Source: Acidobacteriota bacterium
Lineage (GTDB): Bacteria; Acidobacteriota; Vicinamibacteria; Vicinamibacterales; UBA2999
DNA length: 57,120 nt
Assembly: GCA_030650395.1 (NCBI GenBank)
Contig: JAUSDY010000073.1
Location: forward strand, 1-57,120
Reading direction: 5' to 3'
The notes under the pieces were generated by a model. The model was given only the letters and a program-made list of their open reading frames with translations, made no database searches and was not told the origin of the DNA. Below, piece after piece: positions 3,257-18,506 of this stretch. Position 1 is the first letter of the stretch. Each line of letters begins with the position of its first letter. The translations under genes and the position numbers were made by a program.

Positions 3257-5496
3257 TGCGGGATCAGCACGTAGATGGCGCGGCCATGAGTGGCGACGAC
3301 CAGGTCGTTATCGCGCGGATGAATCACGAGGTCGTCAACCGGCACCGTCGGGAAACCGTGCGTGAAGCGCGTCCAGTCCGTGCCGGTGTTGAACGACACG
3401 AACAGCCCGGTCTCGGTGCCGGCAAACAGCACGGCGGGGTTCTTCGGGTGTTCTTTCACGACGTTGATCCAGCCAACCGACGGCAGGCCGCCGGCCAGCG
3501 CCGTCCACGTCTCGCCGAAGTCGCGCGACATGAACACGTACGGCGCAAAGTCATCGTCCTGGTGTCGATCGAGTGAAACGAAAACCGCGCGCGCGTCGGT
3601 GTGGGACGGCTCGACGCGGCTGATGCGTCCCTTCCTCGCGGGGCCAGGTATGCGATCGGTGACGTCTCTCCACGTCTGCCCGCCGTCGCGCGACACCTTC
3701 ACGAGGCCATCGTCGGTGCCCGCCCACAGCAGCGCGGCTTGCACCGGAGATTCGGCCAGCGTGGTGATCGCGCCCCAGGCGCTCACGCCGTCGTTTCTCG
3801 ACAACATTTCGGGACCCGGCTTCTGTCCCATGATCGAAAAGGTGTTGCGATCTTCGCCGCGCGTGATGTCGGGGCCGGCCGTCCAGGTGTCGCCGCGATC
3901 GGTCGAACGGAACACCTGATTGCCGCCGAAGTACAACGTCTTGGAATTGTGCGGCGAGATCACCAGCGGCGACGTCCAGTTGAAACGGTACGGACGCTCT
4001 CCCGCCGGCGGCGCCGGACGAATCGGCTTGCGATCGCCGGTCGGCCGATGGAAGCGCGAGAGGTTGCCATCCTGCGACTCCGTGTAGATGGTGTCGGGGT
4101 CGTTGGGATCCGCCTGCGCGTACATGCCGTCGCCGGTATTGATCTGCACCCAGTCGCCGTTGAGGATGCCGAGATAGTGCCGCGTCGCGCTGGGACCGCC
4201 GAACGAATGGTTGTCCTGCAGGCCGCCGTAGATGTTGTACGGCGTCGCCATGTCGACGCTGATGCCGTAGAACTGGCCGATCGGGATGTTGTTGACCTTG
4301 TCCCACGTGATGCTCGCGTCGAACGAGAAGTACAGCCCGCCGTCGTTGCCCAGGATCAGATGCTTCGGGTTGGCCGGGTTGATCCACAGGGCGTGATGAT
4401 CGCCGTGCACGCCCACGTCGTAGGTGGGGCTCATCACCTCGTTGGCGCCGGCGCGGCCGGTGGCCGGGTCGGCGAACGTGCGGCCGCCGTCTTCGGAAAC
4501 GAACAACGACGCGCCGAGAATGTAGATGCGCCGATCGGTGGTGGGATCGATGTGAATCTTGCTGTAGTACATAGGCCGCGGGTTGACAGTGCTCATCTTC
4601 CGCCACGTGTCGCCGCCATCGTCCGATCGAAACGTGCCGCCGCCATCGCGGTGCTCGACGGTGGCGTAGAGGATGCGCGGGTCCTTCCGCCAGATGGCGA
4701 GGCCGATGCGGCCGATGATGCCTTCGGGCAATCCGCGCGTGAGCTTGGTCCACGTGCGGCCGCCGTCGCCGGTCTTGTAGATGCCGCCGCCTGGACCGCC
4801 GCCGCTGAATCCCCACGGCGCCCGCCGGCGCTGATAGGCCGACGCATACAGGATGTTCCGGTTGTTCGGATCCATCACCATGTCGACGAAGCCGGTGTCT
4901 TGATCGATGAACTTGACGTTGGTCCACGAGCGCCCGCCGTCGGTGGTCTTGTAGACGCCGCGCTCGGGGCTCGGCCCCCACAGCTTGCCGAGGGCCGCGA
5001 CATAGACCGTCTCGGAATCCACGGGATCGATGATCACGCGCCCGATGTGCTGCGTCTCGCGCAGGCCCATGTGGCTCCACGCCCGGCCGCCGTCGATCGA
5101 CTTGTAGACGCCGTCGCCGAAGCTGGAGCTCTGGCGGTTGTTGGGTTCGCCCGTGCCCACCCACACCAGGTCGGGGTTCGACGCGCTCAGGGCGACGTCG
5201 CCGATCGAGGCGACGCCTTCGCGATCGAACAGCGGCGTCCACGTCGTGCCGGCATTGATCGTCTTCCAGACGCCGCCCGAGGCCGCGCCGACATAGATCG
5301 TGGACGGGTTGCGCTCGTCCACCGCCACATCGTCGATGCGGCCGCCCATCACGGCCGGGCCGATCGCGCGCCATTCGAGCTGCCGGAGCGCGGCTTCGTT
5401 CAGTCTCTCCACCTTCGCGCTCTGCGCTACGGCGGACAAGTGCGCGGAAGGCGCGGCGATCGCCAGCAGCACGAACGCGAGCGTGAGCCGTATCAC
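3247..5496 (-). CDS. Secreted VPS10/sortilin-like beta-propeller protein (C-terminally shortened)
   Basis: A 749-residue protein with a signal peptide (MIRLTLAFVLLAIAAPSAHL) and many BNR/sortilin-type repeats of the form GVYKSTDGGRTW (for example GGVWKTINAGTTW, GVYKTTDGGRSW, GIYKTGDGGRTW). These build a large beta-propeller. Relatives in Acidobacteria and Gemmatimonadota are about 1000 residues and are often labelled glycosyl hydrolase, though the activity is not established. This copy stops at HGRAIYVLIPHFR, just after the propeller. The usual C-terminal part lies behind it out of frame (2753-3256). It overlaps the gamma-glutamyltransferase gene by 4 bases (ATGA), so the two form an operon. 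Confidence 0.82.
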   Translation of the reverse strand: MIRLTLAFVLLAIAAPSAHLSAVAQSAKVERLNEAALRQLEWRAIGPAVMGGRIDDVAVDERNPSTIYVGAASGGVWKTINAGTTWTPLFDREGVASIGDVALSASNPDLVWVGTGEPNNRQSSSFGDGVYKSIDGGRAWSHMGLRETQHIGRVIIDPVDSETVYVAALGKLWGPSPERGVYKTTDGGRSWTNVKFIDQDTGFVDMVMDPNNRNILYASAYQRRRAPWGFSGGGPGGGIYKTGDGGRTWTKLTRGLPEGIIGRIGLAIWRKDPRILYATVEHRDGGGTFRSDDGGDTWRKMSTVNPRPMYYSKIHIDPTTDRRIYILGASLFVSEDGGRTFADPATGRAGANEVMSPTYDVGVHGDHHALWINPANPKHLILGNDGGLYFSFDASITWDKVNNIPIGQFYGISVDMATPYNIYGGLQDNHSFGGPSATRHYLGILNGDWVQINTGDGMYAQADPNDPDTIYTESQDGNLSRFHRPTGDRKPIRPAPPAGERPYRFNWTSPLVISPHNSKTLYFGGNQVFRSTDRGDTWTAGPDITRGEDRNTFSIMGQKPGPEMLSRNDGVSAWGAITTLAESPVQAALLWAGTDDGLVKVSRDGGQTWRDVTDRIPGPARKGRISRVEPSHTDARAVFVSLDRHQDDDFAPYVFMSRDFGETWTALAGGLPSVGWINVVKEHPKNPAVLFAGTETGLFVSFNTGTDWTRFTHGFPTVPVDDLVIHPRDNDLVVATHGRAIYVLIPHFR

Positions 5497-9196: not shown

Positions 9197-9242
9197 GAAG
9201 CGACCATGTCGCCCTGGAGAAATACATATCAAATCTGTGATG

Positions 9243-9278
9243 TTGACATCTGGTAGGCATATGAATAGTATATTTTGT
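9243..9278 (+). promoter_or_regulatory. Sigma-70 promoter of vapBC, apparently leaderless
   Basis: TTGACA (9243-9248) is followed by a 17-base spacer and TAGTAT (9266-9271). The start codon of vapB begins 8 bases after the -10 box, where transcription should start, so the message would have no leader. The stretch is markedly AT-rich against its surroundings. Confidence 0.7.
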
Positions 9279-9485
9279 ATGCGAACGACCTTGGATTTAC
9301 CGGAAGCGTTGGTGGATGACGCGCGCGCTGTTTTGGGCTTCAAGTCCAAGACCGACACCGTGGTCTATGCGTTAAGGGAAGTGGTGCGCCGCGGCCACGT
9401 TGAAGGCTTGAAGGCCCTCTTCGGGAAAGTCCACATCGACTTGGATCTCGCCAAGGTCAGGGGACGACGCCGGGCCCGGCCGTGA
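9279..9485 (+). CDS. vapB: VapB-family antitoxin
   Basis: A 68-residue protein starting MRTTLDLPEALVDDARAVLG, the ribbon-helix-helix opening of DUF2191/VapB antitoxins, with the SKTDTVVYALREVV helix and a basic C-terminal tail. It should bind DNA as a dimer and neutralise the VapC nuclease encoded directly after it (overlap of 4 bases). I prefer the ATG at 9279 over the GTG at 9237 because the upstream codons cover the promoter boxes and the family starts at MRTT. Autoregulation by the VapBC complex on the AT-rich promoter is typical of the family and is inferred here. Confidence 0.85.
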   Translation: MRTTLDLPEALVDDARAVLGFKSKTDTVVYALREVVRRGHVEGLKALFGKVHIDLDLAKVRGRRRARP

Positions 9486-9877
9486 TCGTCGTCGACACGT
9501 CCGTGTGGATCTTCGCTCTTCGGTCGGCGTCAGGGCCCGAGGCCACCACGCTTCGGTCGCTCCTCGACGCCGACGAAGTCGCGCTGGCGGTTCCGGTTCG
9601 AACGGAGCTGCTGATGGGTGCCCGCGCGAGCGATCGGGTGAAGCTGGAGAAAGAACTGAAAGGCCTGCCGCTGCTCTACCCCACCGACGAATCGTGGCGG
9701 ACCATCGATCGCTGGACCGACCGCGCATCGCGCGCCGGCGTCTCATTCGCGATCGGCGACCTGCTGATTGGTGTGCTCGCGGCGGATATCGGGGGGCTGG
9801 TGTGGTCGCTCGACAGCGACTTCGATCGGATGGAGAAACTGAAGCTGGTCGATCGCTTCACCGGTCCCAAGACCTAG
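9482..9877 (+). CDS. vapC: VapC-family PIN-domain ribonuclease toxin
   Basis: A 131-residue PIN domain. Candidate metal-binding acids are D5 (MIVVDTSVWI), E42 (RTELLMG), D93 (AIGDLLIG) and D111/D113 (SLDSDFDRM), the expected four-acid arrangement. The family cleaves tRNA or rRNA when the antitoxin is degraded. It starts with GTG overlapping the vapB stop (GTGA), which shows translational coupling. The pair sits at the edge of the lasso-peptide locus, a common place for toxin-antitoxin genes in acquired islands. Confidence 0.88.
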   Translation: MIVVDTSVWIFALRSASGPEATTLRSLLDADEVALAVPVRTELLMGARASDRVKLEKELKGLPLLYPTDESWRTIDRWTDRASRAGVSFAIGDLLIGVLAADIGGLVWSLDSDFDRMEKLKLVDRFTGPKT

Positions 9878-10033: not shown

Positions 10034-10204
10034 ATGGATCTACCGATCAACGACGATCGTGAAAACGCCAGGGGCGACGAAGACCGGGTGCAGAAGAAGA
10101 TCTGGTGCACGCCAGTTTTGATCATCGCGGATGTGAGTACCAGCGGCGCCTCGAAAATACAGCAGCAAAACGAGGCGGATCATACCCGTGGCCCGAGTTC
10201 GTGA
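10034..10204 (+). CDS. Lasso peptide precursor 1
   Basis: A 56-residue peptide with a very good ribosome site (AAGGAG, 7 bases before ATG). The leader (1-38) contains IWCTPVLI, which fits the [Y/W]xxPxL signature recognised by the PqqD-like B1 protein. The predicted core is ASKIQQQNEADHTRGPSS (39-56). Counting from Ala1, Glu falls at position 9, as needed for a nine-residue macrolactam ring, and the last residue is Ser. Precursor 2 keeps the same register. The leader would be cut after STSG, with Ser rather than Thr at position -2. The cut site and ring are predictions. Synthases, kinase and peptidase are encoded downstream. Confidence 0.8.
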   Translation: MDLPINDDRENARGDEDRVQKKIWCTPVLIIADVSTSGASKIQQQNEADHTRGPSS

Positions 10205-10283
10205 GCAAAGAGCCACAATTGCCACGGGCACACCCTCAGGACTGAGTCCTGTCGACAGATTCCAGTAGACCGACGTACACGTC

Positions 10284-10517
10284 ATGCCCCCTCCATGGCG
10301 GCTGTGGCTCTCCGGCCGCTTCGCTTTTGCCCACTACGGCTTTCCGTTCTCACTGACGACCCCGACGACCCCCGTGGCGCAGTTGCGCGCGATGGGTTTT
10401 TGCGCCCGCGCGACGATCCGGAATCCGCTCAAGCGGTGGCTGCGCGGTCCCGCCAACGGAAGGCGCGGCGGCGGAACAATTCTGGACTGCACCAAAAGCG
10501 CACATCTGGAGTCTTGA
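10284..10517 (+). pseudogene. Relic 5' end of a second ATP-grasp gene
   Basis: The frame begins MPPPWRLWLSGRFAFAHYGF and continues as a near copy of the first 55 or so residues of the intact ATP-grasp protein (MPATWRLWLSDRFAFAHYGF). It then departs after WLRG into an unrelated tail ending at 10517. It lies in the same place relative to precursor 1 as the intact gene does relative to precursor 2. It is best read as what remains of a duplicated gene. A short translated peptide from it is possible but no function is suggested. Confidence 0.72.
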
Positions 10518-10610
10518 GCGGACAGTATGTAGGGTCTGGAGCCTAACGTGGTAGGCTCAGAGCTTCGAATGCGGTGGCCTCTACCGATCGATTCGAGGAA
10601 CCGGACCCGG

Positions 10611-10772
10611 ATGATGAATGACGAACGTGAAAACACCGATGGCGACAACGGGCGGGTGCAGAAGCAGATCTGGCGCACGCCGCTGTTGATCATGGCGGAT
10701 GTGAGCATTAGCGGCGCGGGGAAAGCTACCGAGACCACCGAGACACAACCAAACCCCGGCCCGGCTTCGTGA
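10611..10772 (+). CDS. Lasso peptide precursor 2
   Basis: A paralogue of precursor 1, 52 or 53 residues depending on whether ATG 10611 or 10614 is used. The shared leader core RVQKxIWxTPxLIxADVSxSG contains the W-x-x-P-x-L signature. The predicted core peptide is AGKATETTETQPNPGPAS, again with Ala1, Glu9 and a C-terminal Ser. A register starting at the preceding Gly would place Glu at position 7, but precursor 1 has no acid at 7-9 in that register, so Ala1-Glu9 is preferred. GAGG lies about 12 bases upstream, a weaker ribosome site than precursor 1 has. An upstream in-frame GTG at 10548 is less likely. Confidence 0.8.
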   Translation: MMNDERENTDGDNGRVQKQIWRTPLLIMADVSISGAGKATETTETQPNPGPAS

Positions 10773-10878
10773 GCCGAGCGGCCAAAATTGCGGGCACACC
10801 TCCAGTAGATCAACGCTTACCCTTGCTGTCTCGCGCATCGCTTCGTGGAGGATCGCTCCGGTCAGCGGTGTAGCCGTC

Positions 10879-12087
10879 ATGCCCGCAACATGGCGGCTGT
10901 GGCTCTCCGACCGCTTCGCCTTTGCCCACTACGGCTTTCCGTTCTCACTGACGACCCCGACGACCCCTGTAGCGCGGTTGCGCGCAATGGGGTTTCGTGC
11001 CCGCTCGACGGGCCGGAATCCGCTCAAAGGGTGGCTGCGCGGTGCGGCCATGATGATATCGTGGCCGATCGGTGCGTTCCTCGATGCGCTCCGCGACGCC
11101 CGCGCGATCGCGACCGCGGACTCCCGTGTGCATCTGGTCACCACGCTCGTCGACATCTACGTCCTGGCGCTGACGCGCAATATTCCTCCACTGGAATACA
11201 AGCTGTATCGCTTCCATGAGCCCGCCGGTCGGGCGGACATGCACCAGTATCTCTATTGGACCGACCTCTCCGCGCTCGCTGCGCTGAACGCGAGGCATGG
11301 CGCCGAGAATCGCGATGTGCAGGATAAGCATTGCTTTGCGGATATTTGCGCTCGCCACGGACTTCCGTATGTGCCGACATTCGCCGTGTTCGAGCACGGA
11401 CGACAGACGGCGCCCGATCGGCCCTTCGCTCCGGAGCAATCGCGCCTGTTCGTCAAGCACCTCCGGGGAAAAGGGAGCATGGGCGCGGAACGCTGGACAC
11501 GCGAGGGCAACTGCTATCGCAACACGCAAGCTGTCGCCGTGCCGGCCGCCGACCTCCCCGAACGCTTGCGTAGAACCGATTGCATTGTTCAGCCGTGCCT
11601 CGATAACCATTCATCGCTGGCGACGCTCACCAACGGCGCGCTGGCGTGCCTGCGCATCGTCACGGGCATCAATCGCGGGAACCAGGCGGAATTCATCTGG
11701 GCGATGTTGATCCTGCCCTTCGGCACGCTCAAGAGCTCAACGTCGGGCATCATCTGCCGCGTCGATCCGCAGACGGGTACGATCACGCGTGCGCTCAACA
11801 TCTGGACCGAGCGCGACATTACGGACCATCCGGATACCGGCGCCGCGCTCATCGGATTCGCCGTGCCATTCTGGCGCGAAAGCGTCGCGCTGGTCAGACA
11901 AGCGCATGCCCTCGCGTTCGGACGATTTTTCTCCCTTGGATGGGATGTGGCGTTGACGGAAACCGGGCCGTTGCTGCTCGAAACGAATGCCGGCTGGGGG
12001 GCACTTCATCATCAGATACTGGACGGTCCAATCGGCCGCACCGTTTTTTCGCGGCTGGTGGAGGAGGAGTTGAACGGGTGCGGCTGA
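10879..12087 (+). CDS. ATP-grasp protein (sugar-transfer-associated type) in the lasso cluster
   Basis: A 402-residue protein resembling the sugar-transfer-associated ATP-grasp group (PF14397-like). Supporting segments are DKHCFADICARHGLPYVPTF, the nucleotide-binding VKHLRGKGSMGAERW, IVQPCLDNHSSLATLTNGAL, RIVTGINRG and the metal/ATP-site LLETNAGWG. Such enzymes join a carboxylate to an amine or other nucleophile using ATP. Its place between the precursors and the cyclase, and a 10-base overlap with the cyclase gene, suggest it tailors the peptide, for example ligation at the C-terminus or a side chain. That is inference. The first 55 residues are duplicated in the upstream relic. A start further in (for example MGFRAR) is possible. 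Confidence 0.72.
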   Translation: MPATWRLWLSDRFAFAHYGFPFSLTTPTTPVARLRAMGFRARSTGRNPLKGWLRGAAMMISWPIGAFLDALRDARAIATADSRVHLVTTLVDIYVLALTRNIPPLEYKLYRFHEPAGRADMHQYLYWTDLSALAALNARHGAENRDVQDKHCFADICARHGLPYVPTFAVFEHGRQTAPDRPFAPEQSRLFVKHLRGKGSMGAERWTREGNCYRNTQAVAVPAADLPERLRRTDCIVQPCLDNHSSLATLTNGALACLRIVTGINRGNQAEFIWAMLILPFGTLKSSTSGIICRVDPQTGTITRALNIWTERDITDHPDTGAALIGFAVPFWRESVALVRQAHALAFGRFFSLGWDVALTETGPLLLETNAGWGALHHQILDGPIGRTVFSRLVEEELNGCG

Positions 12088-13958
12088 TCTGTGGCGTCTG
12101 GCACCTTGACGGGCGACCGGCTTCGGCGCGAACGCTCGACGCCATGACGCGCGAAATGATCGCGCCGGGCCTGAGCTCGCAGCTTCGCACCTGGCGCGAG
12201 GGCCCGCTCGGCCTCGCGGTGGTTGATTTTTCTCAAGAAGCCGGCGCCAGCACGTCGCTGCCGCGCGATGCGGAAGGCCGCGTGCTTGCCGCGGACGTTC
12301 GCCTTGACGAACCGGACGCGCTTGCACGCAGCCTCAATCGCGCGCCCTCCGACGACGACGCGCTGCTCCTGGCAGCTGTCAGCCGTTGGGGCGCGGAGGC
12401 ACCACGGCATGTCTTGGGCGATTACGCGTTCGCCGCGTGGGATGTGAAAACGCGAACGCTGCTGTGCGCGCGCGATGCGCTCGGTGTCAGGCCCTTGGTT
12501 TATCTCCATCAGCCGGAGAGACTCTTCGCCTTCGCCTCCTTGCCGCGCGCGATCCATGGCGCCGATCTGATCGCGCGACGGCTCGACGAGACCGCCCTGG
12601 CGCGTCGGATCATGCTCACACGGCGAGCGGACGATACGCTGTGCCAGGACGTGCGCCGCCTGCCGGCCGCGCACGTGCTCGAGGTCTCGGCCGGGGGGGT
12701 GTCGGTTCGGCCCTATTGGCAACTCAGCCGCGAACGGGCGGGCACGCGCCGAATCGCGCCGGAGGAGGCGGCGCAGGAGTTGCGGCGTCTCATTGACGAG
12801 GCGGTGCGATGCCGGCTCCCCGCCGATGGGCCGGTCGCCGCACACTTGAGCGGCGGCCTGGATTCATCCGCAATCGCGATTCTTGCCGCGCGTCGCCTAC
12901 GTGCTGACCACCGCGCGTTCCTGACCTATTCCTTTCTCGCGAGGCAATCAGACGGCACACCGACTGAAGACGAGACGCCGTTCGTAGGCGCCGTGCGCAC
13001 GCAGGAACCAGACCTCGCCTGGATGCCGATCCATGCGCCGCCCTTTGACCGTGGCCTTGCCGCCCGAATGGACGTCGATCGTCTGCTCTCGATCGAAGCG
13101 GACGATCCCGAGAATGCCATTTGCGCTCACGCTGCGGCGCAGGGCGCGCACGTCGTTCTCTCCGGCTGGGGCGGTGACGAGGGCCCGACGTTCAACGGAC
13201 GCGGCGCGCTGGCCGAAGGCTTCCTGCGTGGGCGCTGGCGCTATGTGGCCGCCGAACTTTCGGCGCTGCACCGCACACGCAGCTGGTCGTTCACCGCCAT
13301 TTGCCGCGGCGAGATTCTGTCCTATCTCATCCCGCAACCGCTGATGAACGCCCAGCGCCGCCTGCGCCGTCGTCCCGTTTCTTTCGTCGATCAACTCTGT
13401 CCTCTGGTGGCATCCGCGCGGGCCGCCAGCCTGGGCGGCAGCGACCTGGAAACGCTTGGCATGGGACCCGATGCGCGCGAGAATCAGATGCGCTTGTTGT
13501 CGAGCCCGCACCTCGCCGAGCGCACCGAGAACTGGGCATCGATCGGCGCGCGCTACGGGATGGCGTTCGCGTTTCCGATGCTCGACCGGCGGGTCCTCGA
13601 ATTCGCGGTCTCGCTGCCCAGTGCACTCTTCTTGCGCGGAGGATACAGGCGCCGCGTGTTTCGTGATGCGATGGAGGGCGTGCTGCCGGAAGCGATTCGC
13701 TGGCGGCACCAGAAGCTTATGCCGTTACCAGATTTGCTCACGATGGCGGCTGGACATCGCGACGAGATCCTGCAGTATCTGGATGCGGTGGCCGACCATT
13801 CGCGCGTCCGCACGTTGTTCGACCTCGACGGCGTGCGCGCCGTGGCCGCATCCTTGCCGTCGCCCGACGCGGTCCGCGCCGGAACCGCCGATGTGACGGG
13901 ATTAATCGTCGTGCTGCACTTCTTACCGGCCATCGCGTACCTCGAACAGCACTACTGA
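12078..13958 (+). CDS. Lasso peptide macrolactam synthetase (asparagine-synthase-like, C protein)
   Basis: A 626-residue AsnB-type protein. The N-terminal half resembles the glutaminase domain, but the Cys sits at position 5 (VRLICGVWHLDG), not 2. The synthetase half carries the PP-loop SGGLDSS (258-264), and GWGGDEG and MLDRRVLEFAVSLPS follow. In lasso clusters this enzyme adenylates the Asp/Glu side chain and closes the ring on the core N-terminus. The GTG start at 12078, preceded by GAGGAGG, was chosen because the protein homology begins there; the open frame extends upstream only through the ATP-grasp gene. It overlaps the methyltransferase gene by 1 base (TGATG). Confidence 0.88.
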   Translation: MRLICGVWHLDGRPASARTLDAMTREMIAPGLSSQLRTWREGPLGLAVVDFSQEAGASTSLPRDAEGRVLAADVRLDEPDALARSLNRAPSDDDALLLAAVSRWGAEAPRHVLGDYAFAAWDVKTRTLLCARDALGVRPLVYLHQPERLFAFASLPRAIHGADLIARRLDETALARRIMLTRRADDTLCQDVRRLPAAHVLEVSAGGVSVRPYWQLSRERAGTRRIAPEEAAQELRRLIDEAVRCRLPADGPVAAHLSGGLDSSAIAILAARRLRADHRAFLTYSFLARQSDGTPTEDETPFVGAVRTQEPDLAWMPIHAPPFDRGLAARMDVDRLLSIEADDPENAICAHAAAQGAHVVLSGWGGDEGPTFNGRGALAEGFLRGRWRYVAAELSALHRTRSWSFTAICRGEILSYLIPQPLMNAQRRLRRRPVSFVDQLCPLVASARAASLGGSDLETLGMGPDARENQMRLLSSPHLAERTENWASIGARYGMAFAFPMLDRRVLEFAVSLPSALFLRGGYRRRVFRDAMEGVLPEAIRWRHQKLMPLPDLLTMAAGHRDEILQYLDAVADHSRVRTLFDLDGVRAVAASLPSPDAVRAGTADVTGLIVVLHFLPAIAYLEQHY

Positions 13959-15585
13959 TGATCCCACCAGCGATGGAGGTCCTTCTTGTCGAGATCCAGG
14001 AACGCCCGCACGACAGGTTGCTGCACGAAGAGGGCGTCCAATTACTGACGGATCTCAGCGATGGCGCGTCCGGGAGACCTGCAATTCAGTCGCAGCTCAT
14101 CTCCGATCTCCTGGCGACGCTGTTCGAACACGATCTCATCGATCATCAGGAGATTGCGTCGTGTGCGATCGGCCAGCTGAAGCGCAGATACGGAATCGAC
14201 TCCAACACCGCGCCGGCCGAACCTCTGGCGCAGTCGCTGGCTCAAGACAATCTCTTCCTCTCGACGCTTCGGCGCATCATCAACATCGACCCTGAATTCG
14301 AGATCTTCCTGAGGCAGGCACGACGCTTTCTGTTGTTCCACTATCAGGGCGAGCGGGCTCTCTCCCGGCGTCTTCTGCCTCTCATCGAGGCGCTGGCGCA
14401 GCAGGGTTTCAACAACGAATACATTCTCCACGAGGAAGAGGATGAGCGCCGTGCGGTGCACGAGATCGAGGCGCAGCTCGAGCAGACCTTCAATGGGGAC
14501 GACATGAGGGACAGCGAGCTCCCCTTGCTTGTCGTCGGCATGTATCGTCCGCTCGCGAGCCTCCCCTTCGTACACCGAATCGAGGACGTAGCCATCGAGA
14601 CCATCTCAAAAGAAGCCCGCGCGGCGATGACCCGAATGATTCGTGAGCCTCTGGAGGAGAAAAGACTGTCGCGACGGATCCCTTCATTCGGTACCATCAC
14701 GCGTCCGACGTCCGAAGCGGTGCGCGCCCAGTACGAAGAGCATCCCTACCCGCGATGGTTCACGTTGGGTAGAACGAAAGCGCTGGAAAGTAGACTCAAG
14801 GGACTGGGTTCCGAATTCTCGTGGCCCTTCTCTTCAGCGGAACGGCTGGAGATTCTGGTACCCGGGTGTGGCACCGGCCGGCACCCGCTCTCGATTGCGG
14901 CGGGCACTCCTGATGCCCGCGTCCTGGCTTTGGATCTAAGTAAGGCCAGTCTGGCCTACGGGCAGCGCATGGCGGAAAAGCTGCAAATCCGCAATGTCAC
15001 ATTCGTGCATGGTGATTTGCTGGAACTGTCGACGCTCGGTAAGCGGTTTCATCACATCGATTGCATCGGGGTGCTCCATCATCTGAAAGATCCGATGGCC
15101 GGGTGGCAGGTGTTGGACCAGGTGCTGCTTCCAGGCGGGACCCTGCACGTCAGTGTGTACAGTACCGTGGCCAGGATGCACATCGAATTCTTGCGGAATG
15201 AGATCGCAAGACTCCAGATCCAACCAACGATCGCCGGCATGAAGGCATTTCGTCATCGGCTCTTGAATGATGAAAGATATAGGCTCTTCCTCCAGTACCT
15301 GCAGATAAAAGATTTCTTCAGCCTTAGAGCGGCTTTCGAGATTATCTGTTTCACGCCAGCGAGTACCGGTACCAGCTCGCGGAAATACGGCGTATCATCG
15401 ACCACTTCGGGTTCAGATTTCTCGGGTTCAGGGTGCCATCGCTGAAAGCCAAGTACCGCGAAATGTTTCCAGACCATCCAGCGATGAACAGCCTGGAGCA
15501 CTGGTGCCGATTTGAACGTCATTACGCAGGAAGCAATGCGCTATTCCAGTTATGGCTCCAGAAGCCGCTCTGCACCGAAGGTTGA
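13958..15585 (+). CDS. SAM-dependent methyltransferase of the lasso cluster, frameshifted near the C-terminus
   Basis: A protein with a helical N-terminal half, the QYEEHPYPRW motif (259-266), and a class I methyltransferase domain with motif I VPGCGTG (301-307), ALDLSKASL and CIGVLHHLKDP. The annotated frame ends at 15445 in nonsense. From about 15331 the next frame continues FRDYLFHASEYRYQLAEIRR and LFQLWLQKPLCTEG, ending at 15585, 5 bases before the kinase gene. One missing G near 15331 explains this. Methyltransferases in lasso clusters can esterify the C-terminus; the target here is unknown. Without the frame repair the last 80 or so residues are lost, probably harming function. Confidence 0.75.
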
Positions 15586-15590
15586 GGAAT

Positions 15591-16535
15591 ATGTGGCATT
15601 ATCGGATCGCCGGGCTTGGGGTGGCGTGCGAGATTCCGCTGCCGGGCATGCTGCCGTCCGACCCGATCGGAAGCGCCCCGGACGTGGTGATACGTCGCGC
15701 AGCGATACCCCCTGCGCTTCCAACCGCGACGTCGTCTGGACCCGATTGGGCCATGGCAGAGGGCCGGTTTCTCCTCGTCATTGCCGGCGTCGCGCGCATC
15801 CTGATCAGCGGCGGCAGGGACATCGCATTCGACATCGACGCCAATGCGGAGGAACGCGACGCGGCAATCTTTCTGCTCGGCACCGCCTTCGGCATCCTGC
15901 TGCAGCAGCGCGGCCACCTGGTGCTCCATGCCAGCGCGGTGGCGGTGAACGGCCGCGCCGTTCTTTTTTGCGGGCCGTCCGGCGCCGGGAAATCGACGCT
16001 CGCGGCGGCGTTGTCGCGCGAGGCGTGCTCCTTCGTCACAGACGATGTCTGCCACGTGGCGTTCGACGCGGAGGGCAGACCCACCATCGCGCCCGACGGG
16101 CGCATGTTGAAACTGTGGGCCGATGCGCTGAACCATCTATCGCTCGGCCACGCCAAGGGCGACGCGGTGCGTGGGCGCATGGAGAAGTACTATGTGCCGC
16201 CAACCCGATTAACTGAGCCGTCCGGTTTGCCCCTGGCGGCCGTCTACTTTTTGCGCGACGCCCGCCCGTCGCTGACCATCGGGATCGAACGGGTGAACGT
16301 CGCCGAGGCGGCGGCGCTCCTGGCGTCGAACGCCTATCGTCCGGAGTTGACGGAAAAGATGGGGCTCGTGAAGTCCTACTTCTTCGATGCGGCCAAGGTG
16401 TGGCGGCATGCCCGCCTCTTCCTCCTCACCCGCCCGCTCGATTTTGCCGTGATGCCGCAGGTGGTTCGTGATCTCGACGCGCATTGGCGGGCGTTGGGAC
16501 TCTTGCCTGCCACGGGCACGGCGGGAGCGCCATGA
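15591..16535 (+). CDS. HPr-kinase-like lasso peptide kinase
   Basis: A 314-residue protein with the C-terminal HPr kinase fold: HLVLHASAVAVNGRAVLF, a P-loop GPSGAGKST (128-136) and FVTDDVCHV. Relatives in paeninodin-type lasso clusters phosphorylate the C-terminal Ser of the precursor. Both precursors here end in Ser, which fits. I chose ATG 15591 (MWHYRIAGLG), preceded by TTGAGGAAT; the longer frame from 15552 overlaps the methyltransferase end. It overlaps the B1 gene by 4 bases (ATGA). The lack of any PTS genes nearby speaks against a carbon-catabolite role. Confidence 0.85.
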   Translation: MWHYRIAGLGVACEIPLPGMLPSDPIGSAPDVVIRRAAIPPALPTATSSGPDWAMAEGRFLLVIAGVARILISGGRDIAFDIDANAEERDAAIFLLGTAFGILLQQRGHLVLHASAVAVNGRAVLFCGPSGAGKSTLAAALSREACSFVTDDVCHVAFDAEGRPTIAPDGRMLKLWADALNHLSLGHAKGDAVRGRMEKYYVPPTRLTEPSGLPLAAVYFLRDARPSLTIGIERVNVAEAAALLASNAYRPELTEKMGLVKSYFFDAAKVWRHARLFLLTRPLDFAVMPQVVRDLDAHWRALGLLPATGTAGAP

Positions 16536-16816
16536 CACTCAGCCGATCGTCAACGGTGCGACGCAATCCCGACCTGCTGCACGCCGTGGCAGGCGACGAC
16601 ATCCTGATGATGAGCGTCGAGGCGGGAACCTATTTCGGCCTTGAACAAGTGGGCGCGCGCATTTGGGAGCTGGTCGCCGACCCGATCACCGTCGAACAGA
16701 TTTGCGCGCGTCTGATCGACGAGTATGACGTCGGCTCGGACGTCTGCGAAGCCGAGGTGCTCGCCTTTCTCGCCCATCTGGCCGAACAGCACATCATTTA
16801 TGTCGCTCAGGAATAA
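16532..16816 (+). CDS. PqqD-like lasso leader-binding protein (B1, RRE)
   Basis: A 94-residue PqqD-family protein: VRRNPDLLHAVAGDDILMMS, YFGLEQVGARIWELVADP, and CEAEVLAFLAHLAEQHII. This winged-helix fold (RiPP recognition element) binds the precursor leader, here presumably the W-x-x-P-x-L motif, and presents it to the peptidase and cyclase. The ATG at 16532 overlaps the kinase stop. The B2 gene overlaps its end by 17 bases. Separate B1 and B2 genes are common in lasso clusters outside the microcin J25 type. Confidence 0.9.
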   Translation: MTLSRSSTVRRNPDLLHAVAGDDILMMSVEAGTYFGLEQVGARIWELVADPITVEQICARLIDEYDVGSDVCEAEVLAFLAHLAEQHIIYVAQE

Positions 16817-17237
16817 GCTGTCGCGCGTTCGCCAGATGTCGGGCGCGGAGCGCTGGCTCATTGCCGAAGCGGTCGTCTCGCTCGGCGCCGCGCGCGCCAT
16901 GATCCTCCTGATGCCGTTTCGCTGGATCGCTCCCTGGCTCGAGCGCAAGCCGCGAGGCTCGGGACGACCCGCCGTACCGGATCCAGTCTTGACTGGAAGC
17001 GTCCGGCGCGCCGTGACGATTGCCGCGAACCATGTTCCCTGGAACGCGGTCTGCCTGCCGCAAGCCATGGCCGCGAAATTCATGCTTGCGCTTCGCGGCT
17101 GTCCCTCGACGCTCCATCTCGGCGTCGCGCGAACGGGGGCGGCTCTGACCGCGCATGCGTGGCTCGAAGCTGGAAACGTCATCGTCGTCGGTGAAAAGGG
17201 CGTTGACGCCGTGACGCCTGTCGCGCGTTTCGGATGA
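16800..17237 (+). CDS. Lasso leader peptidase (B2, transglutaminase-like)
   Basis: A 145-residue protein of the transglutaminase-like superfamily. The catalytic Cys is C85 in WNAVCLPQAMAAKFML and the His is H119 in LTAHAWLEAG; this spacing and the CLPQA and HAWLE wording are typical of lasso B2 proteases, which remove the leader before ring closure. It starts at ATG 16800 inside the B1 gene. It is the last gene of the plus-strand operon; a convergent gene ends 12 bases beyond its stop, so little room is left for a terminator. Confidence 0.9.
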   Translation: MSLRNKLSRVRQMSGAERWLIAEAVVSLGAARAMILLMPFRWIAPWLERKPRGSGRPAVPDPVLTGSVRRAVTIAANHVPWNAVCLPQAMAAKFMLALRGCPSTLHLGVARTGAALTAHAWLEAGNVIVVGEKGVDAVTPVARFG

Positions 17238-17249
17238 CAACGCCGGCCG

Positions 17250-18506
17250 CTACGGTTCTGCGAGAAACTCTCGAAGCGCGATGCTGCGGCGGTCAAGTTC
17301 CGTCAGGGCTGCGTCTCCGCGCTGAAGACGGACCGCGGTTCGCCAGTGGTGTTTCACGAGGTCCTTCAGGCGAGTCGCGTAGACGAGGCGAGAGAATCGA
17401 GGCAGGTTATACATGTGAGTGAGCTGATCCTTCGGGAGGAAGATTCGGCTCCAGTACGTCCGCAGCCTGCCGGCAAGGGTGTGCTGGTTCCACGCCTGCA
17501 CGAACGGGACATTCAATCCACTGTTTCTGTGCCGCTGTAACATCGCCAGCCTCAGGATGCGCTCATCGAACCCGGCCGGCCTGAGCGACTCCAGCACGTC
17601 GTCTGGAACGGCTGCGCCGAGGAGATCTCTTGCCAGCCTGAGCGCGAGGTAGGCGCCTCGCCGGCACCGCCAGCGGCCGGCACGGGCGACAATCTGTACC
17701 CAATCCATCGATTCGCCGTGCCGACGGATCGTCTCGGCCAGGTCGCACCAGGGCCGGGCCGAGAACTCGCAGAGGTGCTGGTAGGTGGCGTGGAAACAGA
17801 GATGAAGCAAGAGGTCTTCGTGTGAGAAGACCAGTACATCGAGGCCGGCGATGCGCGCCGGGACGGCTCGGTCCCACACGTCCCGGACGTCAATCGAAAG
17901 GGTCGAGTCCGGGCCGACGATGTGCCAGTGAATCTCGACGGGGGTCGCCCCAGGCTTCATGAACCGCGGCAGGTGGGGATCACAATACGGCAGGGCGCGA
18001 CTGCTGACGTGGTAAGCAGTCAGCGGTGCGTAGCCCAGTTCCTCGACCACCGCTCCAGCGCTGATCAAATCCCTGGCCGGCACGAGCAGGTCGATGTCAC
18101 CCGTGGTGCGCAGTGCCAAGTCGCCGTAGACGAGGCTGATGAGATGAAGGCCTTTGAGCGCGATGACGGGGATGGCGCGTTCGTGCAACGCCAACACCAC
18201 ACGGCGGAAGTCGCTGTGGATGCGCATGTTGGCCATGGCCGTGCGCCGTTGCGACTCGCCCGCGATTTGTCTGAGCTGATCCGGAAGCGCCGGCGTGAAG
18301 GCCGGTGACAGAAGCCGATGCCGAAGTGTCGGTCCCACCATCAGTTCGTCCGCCAAGTCGACGAGCGACGTCCACTCCTGGTCTGACAGGGTCTTCAGTT
18401 GTTCGAGCGTGGCGGCGTGATCTCGAGCGCGGAGGCAATCGAACAGGATGCGTTCGAGCGCTGTGAGGCGGTCGTTCTCCTCGCCGACAGGGCGAGTGTG
18501 GATCAC
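17250..18506 (-). CDS. Nucleotidyltransferase-family protein convergent with the lasso operon
   Basis: A 418-residue protein resembling the uncharacterised nucleotidyltransferase group PF14907. It has IPVIALKGLHL (112-122), RTTGDIDLLVP (133-143, with the metal-binding acids D137 and D139) and VEIHWH. Members occur in lasso clusters beside the HPr-like kinase, where they are thought to add nucleotide groups to the peptide phosphate, and also in unrelated polysaccharide loci. It is on the opposite strand, and its GTG start lies 4 bases after the GT2 gene stop. It may therefore be transcribed with that glycosyltransferase. Its membership of the lasso pathway is likely but not proven. Confidence 0.72.
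   Translation of the reverse strand: MIHTRPVGEENDRLTALERILFDCLRARDHAATLEQLKTLSDQEWTSLVDLADELMVGPTLRHRLLSPAFTPALPDQLRQIAGESQRRTAMANMRIHSDFRRVVLALHERAIPVIALKGLHLISLVYGDLALRTTGDIDLLVPARDLISAGAVVEELGYAPLTAYHVSSRALPYCDPHLPRFMKPGATPVEIHWHIVGPDSTLSIDVRDVWDRAVPARIAGLDVLVFSHEDLLLHLCFHATYQHLCEFSARPWCDLAETIRRHGESMDWVQIVARAGRWRCRRGAYLALRLARDLLGAAVPDDVLESLRPAGFDERILRLAMLQRHRNSGLNVPFVQAWNQHTLAGRLRTYWSRIFLPKDQLTHMYNLPRFSRLVYATRLKDLVKHHWRTAVRLQRGDAALTELDRRSIALREFLAEP

Follow-up and report, generated by a model that had tools for sequence, protein, structure and literature searches.

The window, taken here as the whole 57,120-nucleotide contig JAUSDY010000073.1 (G000:C50) of a 5.4-Mb Acidobacteriota genome of 180 contigs, carries at positions 10034–17237 a tight single operon for lasso-peptide synthesis, in which every gene lies on the + strand in the order A1, A2, ATP-grasp, C, methyltransferase, kinase, B1 and B2. 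Its junctions are coupled: the ATP-grasp and C genes overlap, the C stop and the methyltransferase start share one base, and the kinase/B1 and B1/B2 pairs overlap. Judged from gene content and conserved residues in relatives, the operon belongs to a phosphorylation-type (paeninodin-like) lasso family that crosses phyla and has a conserved ATP-grasp ligase. The window is an outlying member of this family, with a methyltransferase standing where the others have a sulfotransferase. An earlier note had read the region as a lasso pathway, and every gene it named was found where it placed it, with family matches; it missed a truncated ATP-grasp copy, a PF14907 gene (17250–18506, −) and a frameshift in the methyltransferase. 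The features are as follows.

10034–10204, + strand: precursor A1 (56 residues; WCTPVL leader; AAGGAG upstream of the start)
10284–10517, + strand: truncated duplicate of the ATP-grasp 5′ end (open reading frame, ORF, of 77 residues; about 57 codons match, including GFPF, followed by unrelated sequence)
10611–10772, + strand: precursor A2 (52–53 residues; WRTPLL leader)
10879–12087, + strand: ATP-grasp ligase (PF14397 family)
12078–13958, + strand: lasso cyclase C (AsnB-like, SGGLDS motif)
13958–15445, + strand: class I methyltransferase (N-terminal extension; frameshifted)
15591–16535, + strand: HprK-like kinase (alternative start at 15552)
16532–16816, + strand: B1, PqqD-like leader-binding protein (family match)
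16800–17237, + strand: B2 leader protease (Transglut_core3; Cys and His conserved)
17250–18506, − strand: NTP_transf_5 (PF14907) protein, convergent, ending 12 bp past B2

Lasso enzymes and kinase

C, B1 and B2, which define a lasso cluster when encoded together, are all present in the operon. C matched Asn_synthase (4.7e-32) and, as its best NCBIfam model, lass_lactam_cya (3.3e-87, 293.6 bits vs a cut-off of 525). B2, the single PF13471 match in the genome, matched lasso_biosyn_B2 (NF033537; 7.2e-28) above the curated cut-off. B1 matched the lasso PqqD chaperone model NF033536 (2.6e-21, 75.6 bits vs a cut-off of 80) and has as solved relatives 9x90, itself a lasso PqqD chaperone (2.9e-15), and TbiB1 (3.9e-10). 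The kinase matched HprK-related kinase A (3.2e-10, 39.6 bits vs a cut-off of 200), with Pfam Hpr_kinase_C likewise below its cut-off.

In alignments with the related clusters described below, the SGGxDS motif of C is kept in 11/11 rows and Cys110 and His144 of B2 (numbering from 16725) in 8/8. Kinase residues His113, Lys134, Asp151 and Asp152, the H-K-D-D set of the paeninodin type, are invariant in 11/11 rows, and both window precursors end in Ser, which upholds the earlier assignment of the HPr-like kinase to that type. Lasso kinases with these residues act on a C-terminal Ser, as described in part of PMC9266682.

The precursor pair and its duplication

The two small genes with W-x-x-P-x-L leaders proved paralogous, as the earlier note had it: positions 10045–10156 and 10613–10724 match at 79% over 112 nt. 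A second pair of segments, 10275–10455 and 10870–11050, is 88% identical over 181 nt, and a gapped alignment spans both duplicate pieces, ending within the ATP-grasp gene. These alignments indicate that a tandem duplication gave the precursor pair and took in some 57 codons of the ATP-grasp gene as well, which is why A1 is trailed by a truncated ATP-grasp 5′ copy; the 77-residue ORF at 10284–10517 is probably a remnant. The leaders of A1 and A2 differ 7, 4 and 12 times at first, second and third codon positions, a predominance of third positions that fits selection on the leader, and the cores diverge much more. Two A genes beside a kinase in an acidobacterial lasso cluster were already known from biosynthetic gene cluster (BGC) 482.1 (PMC9064862, in part).

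Because neither A1 nor A2 matched any Pfam or NCBIfam model, their assignment rests on alignment with precursors elsewhere. Both have the aromatic-x-x-P-x-L leader and, in the proposed register, Glu at +9, within the core positions 7–9 at which lasso precursors hold Asp or Glu. The putative A1 core, ASKIQQQNEADHTRGPSS, would have Ala1, Lys3, Glu9 and a C-terminal Ser; the putative A2 core is AGKATETTETQPNPGPAS. A register with Thr(−2) and Gly1 (STS/GASK and SIS/GAGK) was considered and set aside, as it puts the shared Glu at +10 and leaves A1 with no acidic residue at 7–9; the Ala1–Glu9 register is preferred for this reason and because it aligns gap-free with the precursors of loci L136 and L144. 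The two precursors presumably also resemble that of paeninodin, a likeness not used as evidence.

A conserved ATP-grasp ligase in lasso clusters

The ATP-grasp protein matched ATPgrasp_ST (PF14397; 1.4e-32), and this match in the lasso operon is the only one in the genome; PF14397 matches occurred in 7/14 control genomes, above the cut-off in 2. A genome scan with the single protein confirmed nothing. A tblastn search of plasmids returned 8 records; one of these, a megaplasmid of Hyphomicrobiales bacterium UR115, encodes a relative at 40% across 96% of the length. Among 396 genomes of the phylum, matches were obtained in 12 including the window's own, and G250 was the sole other strong one (31%, 7.4e-34); none of the remaining matches was better than 1.2e-15. 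At both the UR115 and the G250 locus, genes for C, B1, the kinase, a sulfotransferase and a W-leader precursor adjoin the ATP-grasp gene.

A further genome scan, covering one genome per species, was based on an alignment of three sequences (window, UR115 and the C-terminal half only of G250) and two motifs. It matched 99 stretches, of which 26 loci were confirmed, and their neighbours were called with phmmer (E ≤ 1e-3) in flanks of up to 8 kb, some contigs being short. At ten of the 26 loci the match is near full-length, covering at least 342 of 402 residues at 30–52% identity, and all ten have C, B1, an HprK-like kinase and a sulfotransferase, with B2 also in the flanks of seven. The other 16, which are distant, shorter and weaker matches, have none of C, B1, kinase, sulfotransferase and B2. 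UR115 and G250 were members of the query; among the eight loci outside it, agreement is 8/8. In an all-against-all comparison with the window included, C, kinase, ATP-grasp and B1 were found in 11/11 clusters, the sulfotransferase in 10/11 (not the window) and B2 in 8/11; in UR115 a B2 gene is found on the replicon of the cluster but some 230 kb from it, in G250 one is found on a different contig, and the third cluster without B2 in its flanks is L143. When the UR115 cyclase was searched against plasmids, only its own record covered 80% of it.

Residues K193, R259, E368 and N370 are invariant in 11/11 ATP-grasp rows. An AlphaFold2 model (10 of the 11 sequences in its alignment; predicted local distance difference test 85.5, predicted template modelling score 0.85) is closest in fold to ArgX/LysX (best Z 14.1, 225 residues, 4.3 Å), RimK (Z 13.9) and D-Ala-D-Ala ligases, with 11–16% identity in the best structural rows. 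RimK, LysX and ArgX ligases add amino acids to a protein C-terminus or terminal Glu; the window protein resembles them in predicted fold (Z ~14) and differs in its N-terminus, which is long and helical and bears a GFPF motif. A sequence search of solved structures found no relative, the one match having E 0.77. On the model, the enzyme likely forms an amide, acting on an amino acid or a protein end.

Several further genes were observed in the related clusters. The ATP-grasp gene of G250 is split by TGA. In L136, an RVT_1 reverse transcriptase frame (3563–4645, +) lies between the sulfotransferase and the precursor, its best NCBIfam model being a group II intron one, under the cut-off; a diversity-generating element was considered owing to this frame and rejected, as no template/variable repeat pair was found. 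L138, L139, L140 and L145 have three tandem related genes nearby, of which the L138 and L139 copies are Phage Tail Collar proteins (PF07484), and have another gene in common that is GNAT-like in L138. Upstream of the ATP-grasp gene, L141, L142, L143 and L145 have another gene in common, which in L141 resembles a 2OG-Fe(II) oxygenase.

Precursor signature of the family

Precursors were sought with an ORF script that required Y, W or F followed by xxP and preceded by K/R; W over Y/F, Lys, Glu and Ser were not demanded. Its output held many spurious frames, some of them Ser-ending, and one ORF per locus was chosen by eye. Seven of the chosen ORFs lie directly upstream of the kinase (L137, L139–L143 and L145) and that of L144 between B1 and C; resemblance served to pick those of L136 and L138, and their Ser therefore counts for less.

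In the alignment of 12 precursors from the 11 clusters, W, P, Gly and the C-terminal Ser are invariant (12/12). A Lys follows the W after 17–18 residues in every precursor, corresponding to core position 2/3, and an acidic residue after 23–24 in 11/12, L139 having them at 25 and 26. The Lys-to-Glu spacing is six residues in 8/12 and seven in 4/12. Under the register proposed here, with Thr at −2 (Ser in the window, Ala in L136), Glu would fall at +9 in ten precursors, at +8 in L137 and at +10 in L139. The L144 core has two additional Lys. In L142 and L143 the W-x-x-P motif is doubled in tandem in the leader (L142:13144–13329 and L143:13236–13466, −; WTTPEIRKAWTTPEIR; WSKPALKTWTKPAIR), perhaps providing two B1-binding sites.

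Methyltransferase

The methyltransferase gene is frameshifted near 15345 (near codon 463), and the missing C-terminal stretch resumes in another frame to about 15585: the in-frame part aligns with homologue residues 543–919 and the other-frame tail with residues 919–993 (E 3.5e-13). The earlier note had taken kinase, methyltransferase and ATP-grasp enzyme as one set of tailoring genes. The kinase and the ATP-grasp enzyme stand, conserved together with a sulfotransferase in 10/10 other clusters; the frameshifted methyltransferase does not, being present in the window cluster alone (1/11), as no match to it was obtained in the ten others (E ≤ 1e-3). Elsewhere in the class, matches to parts of its domain region reach 1e-22 as the best among the matches listed, and of 20 plasmid records with matches the three examined sit among metal-efflux or glycosyltransferase genes. 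The stretch 14001–16000 has the lowest guanine + cytosine content among the 1-kb steps of the window (0.599 and 0.589), the remaining cluster being mostly like the rest, and this would fit a later arrival. The methyltransferase is a local and possibly broken addition.

Two of its three best solved relatives, 8hkr (2.4e-14) and 5doo (8.8e-9), are labelled protein lysine methyltransferase, and the third, 3mgg (2.2e-13), methyltransferase. In the G250 cluster, two HprK-like kinases flank a FliB-like lysine methylase frame (L128:14176–17027, −), which matched NF038110 with 2.8e-22 and 79.8 bits vs a cut-off of 85. Together with the invariant Lys, these labels and this frame suggest that Lys is methylated in the two acidobacterial members. 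It is rather unlikely that the enzyme is instead a C-terminal O-methyltransferase as in lassomycin-like pathways: methyl esters at the C-terminus are the described lasso methylation (PMC9266682, in part), and LahSB, an enzyme of ribosomally synthesized and post-translationally modified peptides (RiPPs), is among the solved relatives (7.6e-5), whereas the lysine methyltransferase labels, the invariant core Lys and the FliB-like frame point, as far as sequence likeness goes, to Lys N-methylation. The methylated lassomycin-type systems (StspM) likewise have a methyltransferase inside the lasso operon; that of the window differs in its frameshift and in the lysine methyltransferase labels of its relatives, a difference judged from solved relatives.

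Distribution and origin

Outside the window's genome, 83 B2 matches were found in the class, 82 of which (all but that of G031) fall within the 80 regions retrieved; profile matches at E ≤ 1e-4 gave an ATP-grasp gene in none, a sulfotransferase in one (L096) and a kinase in 41, several regions being short contigs, so that absences there are soft. The ATP-grasp gene is absent from 8/8 other genomes of the genus, and just two other genomes of the class gave matches, both weak (5.7e-14 and 2.1e-11). Within the genus, G111 (C1, C30 and C75) has five B2 matches and no ATP-grasp match; the other seven genomes have no B2 match. The same gene order, which the earlier note had expected in other Vicinamibacteria, was thus not found there, and conserved precursors beside the lasso genes occur in Pseudomonadota and one other acidobacterium rather than among the class relatives.

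Across the 80 regions, a C-terminal Ser was not seen as a general mark of kinase clusters. Two Ser-ending frames look spurious and were set aside, one in L046 (13004–13174) for lying on the strand opposite to B1 and kinase, the other in L087 (4299–4442) for its TTG start and its orientation opposite to the kinase. The remaining candidate precursors printed for the class have no Ser end, and a W leader occurs in several of them, which makes W by itself unspecific. No precursor was found in L096.

In a cyclase tree of 56 sequences (the window, the 10 ATP-grasp clusters and 45 from the class), the window C groups, at 100/100 support, with those of nine ATP-grasp clusters, each of them labelled Pseudomonadota; by identity its nearest is L136 (52%). 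The G250 cyclase branches next with weak support (93/49, long branch), followed by L096 of the same order (100/99). Given this placement and the absence of the ATP-grasp gene in the genus, horizontal exchange of the lasso cluster is the simplest reading.

Around the operon, a VapB-like antitoxin gene (PF09957) and a PIN-domain toxin gene (PF01850) lie directly upstream of A1 (9237–9877, +). One promoter-like site was found where 1.3 were expected, and 12 terminator-like sites where 5.6 were expected. The convergent PF14907 gene is the only such match in the genome, the family recurs in 29/80 other class B2 regions, and its product is a probable partner of the lasso pathway; we take PsmN-type nucleotidyltransferases to belong to the same family. 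Nucleotidyltransferase and sulfotransferase genes are known companions of phosphorylated lasso clusters (PMC9266682 and PMC8498205, both in part).

Proposed pathway and alternatives

We infer that the operon probably makes two phosphorylated lasso peptides that carry an extra amide formed by the ATP-grasp ligase, the reactions and the exact core boundaries being read from sequence. B1 would bind the leader of A1 or A2 via the W-x-x-P-x-L motif, and the HprK-like kinase would phosphorylate the C-terminal Ser on the linear peptide. While the peptide is linear, the ATP-grasp ligase would turn a peptide carboxylate into an acyl phosphate and couple an amine to it; we favour a RimK/LysX-like attack by a free amino acid or amine on the carboxylate at the C-terminus. 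B2 would cleave the leader ahead of Ala+1, and C would close a ring of nine residues between the amino group of Ala1 and the side chain of Glu9, leaving a tail of another nine. The calculated [M+H]+ of such lassos is 1935.927 for A1 and 1738.824 for A2 before any tailoring, and 2015.893 and 1818.791 with a single phosphate. The phosphate may be built upon by the nucleotidyltransferase, in the way PsmN attaches hexose, and if the frameshift is not real, the conserved Lys of the ring may be a target of the methyltransferase. Peptide ligation by a RiPP ATP-grasp enzyme has a precedent in pheganomycin (PMC7794033, in part).

Tentatively, at somewhat short of even chances, we regard the family as a new lasso branch of Acidobacteriota and Pseudomonadota with a second ATP-dependent amide, which would join either the tail to the ring Lys, as a doubly locked lasso, or an amino acid to the C-terminus after the phosphorylated Ser.

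A number of points weigh against these proposals. None of the 11 clusters has a product known to us. In the operon we saw no transporter gene, and both the methyltransferase frameshift and the truncated copy of the ATP-grasp gene could be signs of decay. As the scan relied on two short motifs, clusters lacking them would go unseen. Inositol-phosphate kinases and PurK also reach Z 12–13 against the ATP-grasp model, and Foldseek TM-scores are 0.32–0.38 in the listed rows; as this likeness is broad and weak, the fold leaves the reaction of the enzyme unfixed. The penultimate leader residue is not the usual Thr in the window (Ser in A1 and A2 under the proposed register) or in L136, and the Glu of L137 and L139 departs from +9. 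Exceptions to Thr(−2) are described (PMC9064862 and PMC10368454, both in part), so that its lack weakens the register rather than lasso membership. BsfK of a related system phosphorylates Ser3 and not the C-terminus (PMC10368454).

A lasso–graspetide hybrid, in which the ATP-grasp enzyme would join the ring Lys to the Glu 6–7 residues on or to the C-terminal carboxylate and so form an additional macrocycle, on top of the lasso ring or in its place, seems improbable to us. Lys and Glu are invariant at near-fixed spacing in 12/12 precursors in which other ring residues vary, ATP-grasp ligases of graspetides link Asp or Glu to the side chain of a Ser, Thr or Lys (PMC9576775, in part), and there is an engineered pairing of a graspetide synthetase with a lasso scaffold (PMC13003496 and PMC13352647, both in part). 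However, 9/12 proposed cores hold a single acidic residue, which C needs for the lasso ring, so that the Lys–Glu amide and that ring would compete; graspetide synthetases are also not among the listed fold neighbours of the model, which does not exclude them.

Decay of the cluster is likewise a poor explanation, a little more so than the hybrid. It would account for the frameshift, the truncated copy, the lack of a transporter and the restriction of the ATP-grasp gene within its genus (0/8 other genomes), yet catalytic-type residues are kept in the kinase, B2, C and the ATP-grasp enzyme, the A1/A2 leader differences are highest at third codon positions, and misassembly, in a genome of 180 contigs, may have produced the frameshift. 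Least probable of all is an ordinary phosphorylated lasso cluster whose ATP-grasp enzyme leaves the peptide untouched and serves immunity, a surface sugar or a small molecule, as the breadth of PF14397, named 'sugar-transfer associated', and its distant members away from lasso genes (16/26 loci) might suggest, since the gene sits in the operon and overlaps C, its 5′ end was duplicated along with a precursor, and 10/10 near full-length relatives lie in lasso clusters.

Relation to known systems and significance

The paeninodin and pseudomycoidin clusters (pade, psm) have in common with the window the split B1/B2, C, an HprK-like kinase with H-K-D-D and Ser-ending precursors. They differ in that an ATP-grasp gene stands here beside C, the leader has W (the described motif being YxxPxL) and a ring Lys is invariant, and in that the window has a methyltransferase instead of a sulfotransferase. 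Graspetide systems likewise place a precursor beside an ATP-grasp ligase, with Lys and Glu in the core; here, lasso genes are present and the listed fold neighbours are ArgX/LysX, RimK and D-Ala ligases. Graspetide precursors have repeated ring motifs, in contrast to the single conserved Lys/Glu pair. Bsf-type clusters (Bradymonas, Ile(−2)), also known from Acidobacteriaceae, bear a kinase and an unusual penultimate leader residue, whereas their kinase acts on Ser3 and no ATP-grasp gene is named in the sections of PMC10368454 concerned. The acidobacterial metagenomic BGC 482.1 likewise has two A genes, B1, B2, C and a kinase and accepts Ser at −2, whereas its kinase is aminoglycoside phosphotransferase-like and no ATP-grasp enzyme appears among the genes listed in the relevant part of PMC9064862.

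In the PubMed Central literature searched, we found no account of an ATP-grasp ligase in a naturally occurring lasso cluster, and no natural second ATP-dependent amide on lasso peptides; earlier notice in subscription papers, including the RODEO survey, is possible. The links between lasso peptides and ATP-grasp enzymes found there are the engineered combination (PMC13003496, cited in PMC13352647) and an in vitro graspetide example within a lasso review (PMC8498205, in part). The known tailoring of lasso peptides is a short list, comprising phosphorylation, hexosylation, methylation, acetylation, hydroxylation, epimerization, citrullination and the like (PMC9266682, in part).

What is new here is the conserved ATP-grasp enzyme of a phosphorylation-type lasso family, which we did not find described. 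The combination of PF14397 beside C, a W-x-x-P leader, a ring Lys and a terminal Ser provides a rule for genome mining, and the hosts of the family include records not labelled as metagenome-assembled genomes, such as Sphingomonas sp. Root720 and Methylomonas fluvii EbB. Retention of the ligase gene in 11 clusters of two phyla, together with co-conserved precursor residues, points to an undescribed dedicated modification.

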